A stretch of DNA of 64,000 bases from Terriglobia bacterium (GTDB lineage Bacteria > Acidobacteriota > Terriglobia > Versatilivoradales > Versatilivoraceae): positions 62,001-126,000 of the forward strand of contig JAKUNG010000010.1 in NCBI GenBank assembly GCA_022452285.1, written 5' to 3'. Of this stretch, positions 54,733 to 56,152 are shown piece by piece (within the stretch, counting starts at the first letter, position 1; every line of letters begins with the position of its first letter). The notes beneath the pieces were generated by a model that was given only the letters and a program-made list of their open reading frames with translations, was not told the origin of the DNA and made no database searches. Position numbers and translations under genes: made by a program.

Positions 54733-54806
54733 TGGGAGGTCGTCTAATGGTAGGACAGCAGGTTCTGGACCTGCTTATCGGGGTTCGAATCCCTGCCTCC
54801 CAGCCA
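54733..54806 (+). tRNA. tRNA-Gln (anticodon CTG)
   Basis: A complete cloverleaf with encoded CCA. The acceptor stem TGGGAGG pairs perfectly with CCTCCCA, followed by discriminator G and CCA. The D arm contains TAATGGTAG. The anticodon stem GCAGG/CCTGC encloses loop TTCTGGA with anticodon CTG at 54765-54767 (reads CAG, glutamine). The T arm is CGGGG-TTCGAAT-CCCTG. A promoter lies upstream and an AT-only inverted repeat (54815-54847) lies downstream. It is the only tRNA I found in the window. Confidence 0.97.
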
Positions 54807-55405
54807 ACTTTTCTTTAATAATGTTTCTGATTTTTATAAATTATTAAGAACATCAGCAATTGAGTTGTAAAGGCTAGACACATTCCTTTTAAAACTCCTT
54901 TTTAACAATTCGATTTTTCGATTACAAAATTCAATGACCATTGGTGTTTCGAGACCATTAAAAATATTTAAAACCTCTTAAAACTTGTTTACTCATTTTG
55001 CAATGAGAACTAAAAAAGATGTACAAAAAAACTATTCACAGTTTTTGTGGGAAATCCTGTGGAAAAACAGAATTAAAGTACTGAAACTTATTGTTAAACA
55101 AAGACAAAGACCAAGTTGCACATAAAAAGAGGCATCTCCTAAATCTTTGAAAAATAATATATTTATATCGAGAAAACTAGATCCAGAAATCTTTTTCAGA
55201 GATCATAAGCTCACACACCTTATAGGGATTGACTTTTCCACAAGGCGTTTGTGGAATGACACTCTGGACAAGGATTTTGAAGGACGTTGTTGTCGTATCA
55301 TAGTGACAGTTTTACTTTTCATGAATTCCCTTTTGCTAAGAACTGCTATTTATTGATAACTACCGTCAGAGAAATAAAGAATGGCCTTATAGAACACTAC
55401 TATTT
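54807..55405. other. Gene-free AT-rich region with clustered DnaA-box-like sequences (possible oriC)
   Basis: About 600 bases between tRNA-Gln and pdxJ with no credible gene. DnaA-box-like 9-mers (TTWTNCACA) occur at 55032-55040 (plus strand, one mismatch), 55046-55054 (minus, one mismatch), 55058-55066 (minus, exact) and 55234-55242 (plus, TTTTCCACA, exact). A weaker one lies at 55250-55258. Three lie within 35 bases. A/T-rich sequence precedes them (54815-54990), including an AT-only inverted repeat and a small hairpin at 54992-55007 (CTCATT ... AATGAG). The 69-codon ORF at 55147 overlaps a box and looks spurious. The function is inferred; dnaA and dnaN are not nearby. Confidence 0.45.
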
Positions 55406-56152
55406 CTATTGTGTTTTCAGATGAGCTATCTGAATAGTTTCAAGGTATTTGTTCAGAGTAACCTCTAAACCATAATCTATTGAATCAACAGCAATGGCAT
55501 GGCCAATTGAAACTTCTAAGATTTTGGGTATGGTAAGGAAGAGGCCTAGGTTGTGAAGATTTAGGTCGTGGCCAGCATTTACTCCTAAACCTAATTCCTG
55601 AGCTTCCATCGAAAGTTTTCGATATTGTTCAAGAACGTCTTCCTGGGATTCTTTGCCAAATGAATTGGCAAAAGTTTCTGTGTAGAGTTCAATTCGGTCG
55701 GTACCTAGCATTTTAGCTAAACTGATTTGATTAGAATCTGGATCTAAAAAAATGCTTACGCGGATTCCTAATTTCTGGAGATCATTCACAATTGGTTTAA
55801 GTCTTTCTGTGTTATGACGAAGGTCCCAGCCATGATCAGAAGTTAGTTGGTTAGGAGAATCAGGCACAAGGGTACACTGATTTGGTTTGACCTGTTTGAC
55901 TAATTCTAAGAATGAATAAATGGGGTTACCTTCAACGTTAAATTCAATGGTCGGGAATTTTTTAATTAGAGAGGCTAAATCATAGACATCCCGGTATTTG
56001 GTATGTCTCTGGTCTGGACGTGGGTGAACTGTTATGCCGTTGGCGCCAGCTTTGATACAACGCCTAGCTAAACTAATGATGTTAGGTGAATTCTTGTCTC
56101 TGGAATTTCTAAGTAAGGCAAATTTATTTAGGTTTACGCTTAGCGCTGTCAT
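55406..56152 (-). CDS. pdxJ: Pyridoxine 5'-phosphate synthase
   Basis: Condenses 1-deoxyxylulose-5-phosphate with 3-amino-2-oxopropyl phosphate to pyridoxine 5'-phosphate (DXP-dependent vitamin B6 pathway). The 248-residue TIM barrel shows LSVNLNKFALLRNSRDKNSPN, GANGITVHPRPDQRHTKYRDVYDL, EFNVEGNPIYSFLELVKQVKPNQCTLVPD, IRVSIFLDPD, GTDRIELYTETFA and LGVNAGHDLNLHNLGLFL, all diagnostic of PdxJ. It is a complete gene, with its 3' end adjoining the DnaA-box-like region. Other pdx genes are not in the window. Confidence 0.95.
   Translation of the reverse strand: MTALSVNLNKFALLRNSRDKNSPNIISLARRCIKAGANGITVHPRPDQRHTKYRDVYDLASLIKKFPTIEFNVEGNPIYSFLELVKQVKPNQCTLVPDSPNQLTSDHGWDLRHNTERLKPIVNDLQKLGIRVSIFLDPDSNQISLAKMLGTDRIELYTETFANSFGKESQEDVLEQYRKLSMEAQELGLGVNAGHDLNLHNLGLFLTIPKILEVSIGHAIAVDSIDYGLEVTLNKYLETIQIAHLKTQ

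Follow-up and report, generated by a model that had tools for sequence, protein, structure and literature searches.

In Escherichia coli, ADP-DnaA is made by the RIDA step, DnaA-reactivating sequences (DARS), at which spent DnaA is recharged, have been described, and IHF and Fis have a stimulating role at one of these sites, DARS2. DARS1 and DARS2 share the spacing of their boxes and a box I turned against the other two, and do not share their flanks (PMC5742627); the head-to-head box pair is functionally essential in DARS (PMC10380432). According to a 2014 paper, conservation of the DARS2 core is specific to gamma-proteobacteria; a later review mentions DARS-like sequences in 'many proteobacterial species'. 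DnaA-box clusters outside oriC, to which the locus described here also belongs, occur in Bacillus subtilis, a bacterium without DARS loci (PMC13220808). We found no report of DARS in Acidobacteria/Acidobacteriota in the open-access literature; an earlier mention is possible.

The E. coli loci were extracted from MG1655 and scanned for box geometry, and boxes I-III were assigned from the spacing common to both loci together with the deletion primers given in PMC4585315. The DARS1 core (bioD-uvrB, about 101 bp) reads TTATCCACT-attcc-TGTGGATAA-cca-TGTGTATTA and the DARS2 core (locus of 455 bp) reads TTATTCACC-ttttc-TGTGGATAG-agt-TGTGAAGAA, both with the 9-5-9-3-9 arrangement. The same MG1655 scan detected no (5,3) triple in datA.

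Locus and DnaA-box geometry

The window, i.e., the whole stretch of 64,000 nucleotides analyzed here, covers positions 62001-126000 of contig C2, which is 156,274 bases long and part of a 3.24-Mb draft genome from the phylum Acidobacteriota (G000, 7% contamination). A gap of 599 bases separates tRNA-Gln (ending at 54806) from the end of pdxJ (55406), both of which converge on the element, and the box cluster starts 226 bp downstream of tRNA-Gln. The features of the locus are as follows:

54733..54806, plus strand: tRNA-Gln (CTG), the upstream neighbour, conserved in the related genus
55030..55290, plus strand: whole conserved element in the family view (alignment A1, 82% mean column identity, 264 columns)
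55032..55040, plus strand: DnaA box I of the DARS-type core (CTATTCACA), one mismatch; TTCACA/TCCACA kept in relatives
55046..55054, minus strand: DnaA box II (TTTCCCACA), one mismatch; opposed to box I, 5-bp spacer
55058..55066, minus strand: DnaA box III (TTTTCCACA), exact match; 3-bp spacer from box II
55107..55122, plus strand: second conserved motif (AAGACCAAGTTGCACA); its TTGCAC, at 55116, lies exactly 49 bp beyond box III
55234..55242, plus strand: further DnaA box (TTTTCCACA), exact match; unchanged in all aligned family copies
55406..56152, minus strand: pdxJ (Pfam PF03740, E 3e-83), the convergent downstream neighbour

A sequence-only reading of the window had named four boxes, two exact matches to TTWTNCACA (55058-55066, minus; 55234-55242, plus) and two with one mismatch (55032-55040 and 55046-55054), all of which we confirmed. 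To that reading we add the box geometry, the second motif (55107-55122) and the finding that the element is conserved in other genomes. Exact boxes are no more frequent than usual across the whole window (11 observed vs 8.6 expected), and a surplus of them was rejected on this count. What stands out is how the boxes are arranged.

The arrangement was scored over 27 positions for the layout box(+)-5-box(-)-3-box(-). The core in the window scores 25/27, boxes I and II having one deviation from the consensus each. Across 273 spacings, this core is the sole triple with a score of at least 25/27 on the 156 kb of C2, and 260 kb of a second contig of the genome, C1, contains one such triple, likewise at (5,3). 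No (5,3) triple of at least 25 was found in 200 Markov controls of the contig's size (31 Mb; best score 24). The three-box arrangement is real and non-random. The same box(+)-5-box(-)-3-box(-) layout is found in the window, in the C1 copy, in genomes G009 and G004, and in the DARS1 and DARS2 cores of E. coli. Phylum-wide, box triples at other spacings are also common, with (2,3) exceeding (5,3) (31 vs 24), and some of the triples at (2,3) or other spacings sit at oriC.

Conservation and the second motif

The sequence-only reading had proposed checking the boxes in related genomes. A blastn search with the region from tRNA-Gln to pdxJ detected the non-coding stretch 55034-55126 at 72-80% identity in seven genomes from a second genus within the family, in each case beside the same tRNA-Gln(CTG); for two of the seven, a downstream pdxJ was also confirmed. 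The alignment spans 260 bases, including the exact box at 55234, which does not vary among the aligned copies; the position of box II reads TTTTCCACA in relatives. A second copy of the element was detected in G000 at C1:644,864-644,969 (L059:1365-1470), on a contig of opposite skew, between an amidase gene and an ORF of 290 aa that matches no Pfam family, a context that differs from that of the second copies in the related genus. C1 and C2 are likely from one organism (one Acidobacteriota-like dnaA).

The strict core pattern, applied to 84,980 species, yielded 66 loci, 47 of them labelled Acidobacteriota; together with the window and the C1 copy, these give 68 core loci. In 51 of the 68, box III is followed by [CT]TGC at +48 to +50, most often at +49, and the motif of the window scores 10.9 bits against the motif matrix. 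Among the 47 Acidobacteriota core loci, only three (L154, L175, L179) are without the +49 motif, and all three adjoin dnaA. The motif reads TTTTGCACA, a perfect box, in some clades. In five loci (L183, L176, L188, L211, L157), it has dyad symmetry with clade-specific letters (TTTGCACCATCGTGGTGCG, TTGCACAACTGGTTGTGCG, TTGCCCTGATTCGGGGCAT, TTTGCCTATTGGGAAGGCA), resembling the site of a dimeric protein. Matches to an IHF-like site between the core and the +49 motif were seen by eye in one genus only.

A sequence-only model, R1, was built from the 51 loci of the strict core pattern that remained after loci without the +49 motif were left out. Box III is invariant in these 51 loci, partly by selection, since the seed pattern demanded it, and the same holds for the invariance of box II in the alignment; the +49 motif lies outside the seed pattern. 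R1 matches the window at 55032-55137 (56.2 bits, E 2.5e-16). It matches 170 of the 250 genomes of the class (E<=0.01) and 178 of the 297 Acidobacteriota genomes of the phylum (E<=0.001), thresholds at which few chance matches are expected, with E-values being rough. The matches are mostly full length, often two per genome.

The flanking genes vary by clade and, by inspection of their sequences, resemble icd and serA, ftsK, or recN. The tRNA-Gln neighbour is confined to one family; in other clades, the surroundings mostly lack a tRNA. Since the flanks differ by clade, it is the element itself that is kept, as a stand-alone cis site and not as the promoter of one gene. In six Blastocatellia/Pyrinomonadaceae-type genomes (L163, L171, L190, L199, L209, L212), the element adjoins a long ORF, which resembles ftsK by sequence in L190 and L199 and fits by length only in the others.

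Outside the phylum, the two-part element is also present in two genomes of the betaproteobacterium Massilia (L157:7284-7313, L195), where the +49 motif reads TTTGCC, hinting that the element may extend into betaproteobacteria. Elements much like the Acidobacteriota ones also occur on contigs that bear the labels Woeseiaceae, Verrucomicrobia and Bifidobacterium breve (L172, L201, L213), and these are likely mislabelled or mixed bins.

Chromosomal position relative to dnaA

The proposal that the cluster is a replication origin did not survive the analysis of GC skew, which has no sign change at the site. The skew is positive along nearly all 156 kb of C2 and does not change at the element. The dnaA gene of G000 is on another contig, C23, where the skew turns from negative to positive at dnaA, followed by ORFs sized as dnaN, recF, gyrB and gyrA. 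The closed relative G009 (single contig) has a skew change at 880-885 kb, with dnaA at 885,341, and a second one between about 3.65 and 3.80 Mb; its two copies of the element, at 1.578 Mb (1,578,022, well within the positive arm) and 4.849 Mb, lie one per replichore, 0.69 and 1.14 Mb from dnaA.

The distance between the element and dnaA in single-contig genomes (six closed, 0.4-2.8 Mb; genome sizes rounded except for G009) is 2.51 Mb in G412, 2.81 Mb in G587, 1.34 Mb in G439, 0.43 Mb in G307, and 0.91 and 1.14 Mb in G411. The element is thus neither linked to dnaA nor single copy, two copies being present in G000 as well as in G009.

Box triples of (2,3) spacing, with the +49 part of the model unmatched, were detected at the oriC end in G412:C1:7480064 and G587:C1:6468731 (L307, L306). 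This combination is a possible signature separating origins from DARS-type sites. A second dnaA with its own skew flip, followed by ORFs sized as dnaN, recF, gyrB and gyrA, is present at G000:C34:25129-25605 (L012). The DnaA encoded on C34 shares only 46% identity with the C23 DnaA and with the related-genus proteins, and the contig therefore probably belongs to a different organism within the bin.

Discussion

We suggest, with a probability of about 0.7, that the element is a DARS-type site for DnaA control on the chromosome and not an origin, or, in a weaker form, at least a conserved DnaA-control locus. As in E. coli DARS1 and DARS2, three boxes are present with box I opposed to boxes II and III and with measured spacers of 5 and 3 bp, the site is intergenic and chromosomal, between oriC and the terminus and away from oriC, and it is often present in two copies per genome. 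A further conserved stretch beside the core may correspond to the flanking regulatory stretch of the E. coli sites. Of the two options offered by the sequence-only reading, the titration or regulatory cluster was supported and sharpened to a DARS-core layout conserved across the phylum, and the oriC option was not retained.

The element differs from the E. coli sites in being from another phylum, in having TTTTCCACA rather than TTATCCACA boxes, and in its other gene neighbours; no Hda-like protein was detected in the four genomes searched. Its new TTGCAC motif at +49 is not significantly similar to the DARS1 and DARS2 flanks. A resemblance of the +49 motif to GCGGCTTGCAC at +38 in DARS1, striking by eye, was rejected (p about 0.18 against 19 kb of E. 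coli). R1 does not match the DARS1 and DARS2 loci of MG1655, and similarity beyond the boxes is no stated defining feature of DARS. The single deviations in boxes I and II and the frequency of other box spacings in the phylum also count against the DARS reading.

The boxes at the dnaA locus of G000 itself are of the same type (TTTTCCACA, TTATTCACA), and this identity of box type supports DnaA binding at the element, which we would expect by analogy with E. coli. ADP-DnaA left from replication would bind the facing pair of boxes, I and II, as well as box III. The AAA+ domains on boxes I and II may then touch head to head, assisted by box III, leading to ADP release, and the apo-DnaA would leave, take up ATP and become competent to initiate at the dnaA-linked oriC. 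At the +49 TTGCAC, a helper or a further DnaA may bind and stimulate the core, as IHF and Fis do at DARS2. Both the nucleotide exchange and the role of the +49 motif are modelled on the E. coli sites.

Searches with the DnaA ATPase family (PF00308) detected no convincing Hda in G000, G004, G007 and G009. Weak Bac_DnaA matches on C1 and in G009 were rejected as Hda candidates and assigned to DnaC/IstB-like helicase loaders. The RIDA step may be missing here; if Hda is absent, ADP-DnaA would arise by other routes, e.g., the ATPase of DnaA itself.

Among the other explanations, a titration or datA-like site, soaking up DnaA or stimulating its ATP hydrolysis and thereby lowering initiation, would account for the box cluster including the distal box at 55234, and the position 226 bp past tRNA-Gln recalls E. 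coli datA, a DnaA-box cluster away from oriC and downstream of the tRNA-Gly genes glyV, glyX and glyY (PMC10950094). For titration, however, opposed boxes at a fixed 5/3 spacing would not be needed, nor would the +49 motif; E. coli datA differs in box geometry by lacking the (5,3) triple, and the tRNA link of the element holds in one family only. We consider this explanation unlikely. Another protein recognizing TGTGGAAAA-type motifs could be proposed from the dyad symmetry of the +49 motif in several clades, where a different protein may bind. The TGTGGAAAA-type motif nevertheless agrees with the DnaA box consensus and with the box type found at dnaA in the organism itself, and the DARS of E. 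coli, established DnaA sites in the literature, have exactly the same layout. We give such a protein a very slim chance of being the explanation.

An intergenic location adjoining a tRNA gene is also compatible with transcription control of tRNA-Gln or pdxJ, by DnaA or another factor, or with a non-coding RNA belonging to either neighbour. Both neighbours converge, and the element is therefore not an upstream region; the neighbours also vary between clades, and we rejected a promoter or terminator, since no terminator-like site was found and promoter-like sites were not above shuffles. The element has no Rfam match, and its consensus fold is the box I/II inverted repeat only, with no compensatory change; no structure-preserving covariation was seen and an RNA role is therefore unlikely, and regulation of a neighbour is, overall, quite improbable. 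As for a replication origin, at which DnaA boxes beside AT-rich DNA would open the duplex and start replication, the element shares the DnaA-box consensus, the AT-rich neighbourhood and the gene-free region with oriC of the dnaA-dnaN type. Unlike oriC, it has no skew switch on C2 and is commonly found in two copies per genome, one per replichore in G009, far from dnaA in six closed genomes; the skew changes sign at dnaA, both on C23 and, at 0.885 Mb, in G009. The dnaA-adjacent box triples of the phylum are also without the +49 motif that the element carries. We give the origin practically no weight.

If the element is a DARS-type site, DnaA reactivation by DNA sites would be no proteobacterial speciality. 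We propose tentatively, at somewhat less than even odds, a phylum-wide two-part Acidobacteriota DARS, composed of the core and TTGCAC at +49, commonly present twice per chromosome, Hda-free and with a helper protein at the second motif. The same core geometry across many Acidobacteriota families suggests that the recharging of DnaA on chromosomal DNA is an older or more general means of timing replication. The +49 motif provides a second, independent flank architecture for tracing the helper factor, and the element makes it testable whether DARS-type sites work where Hda is not found.
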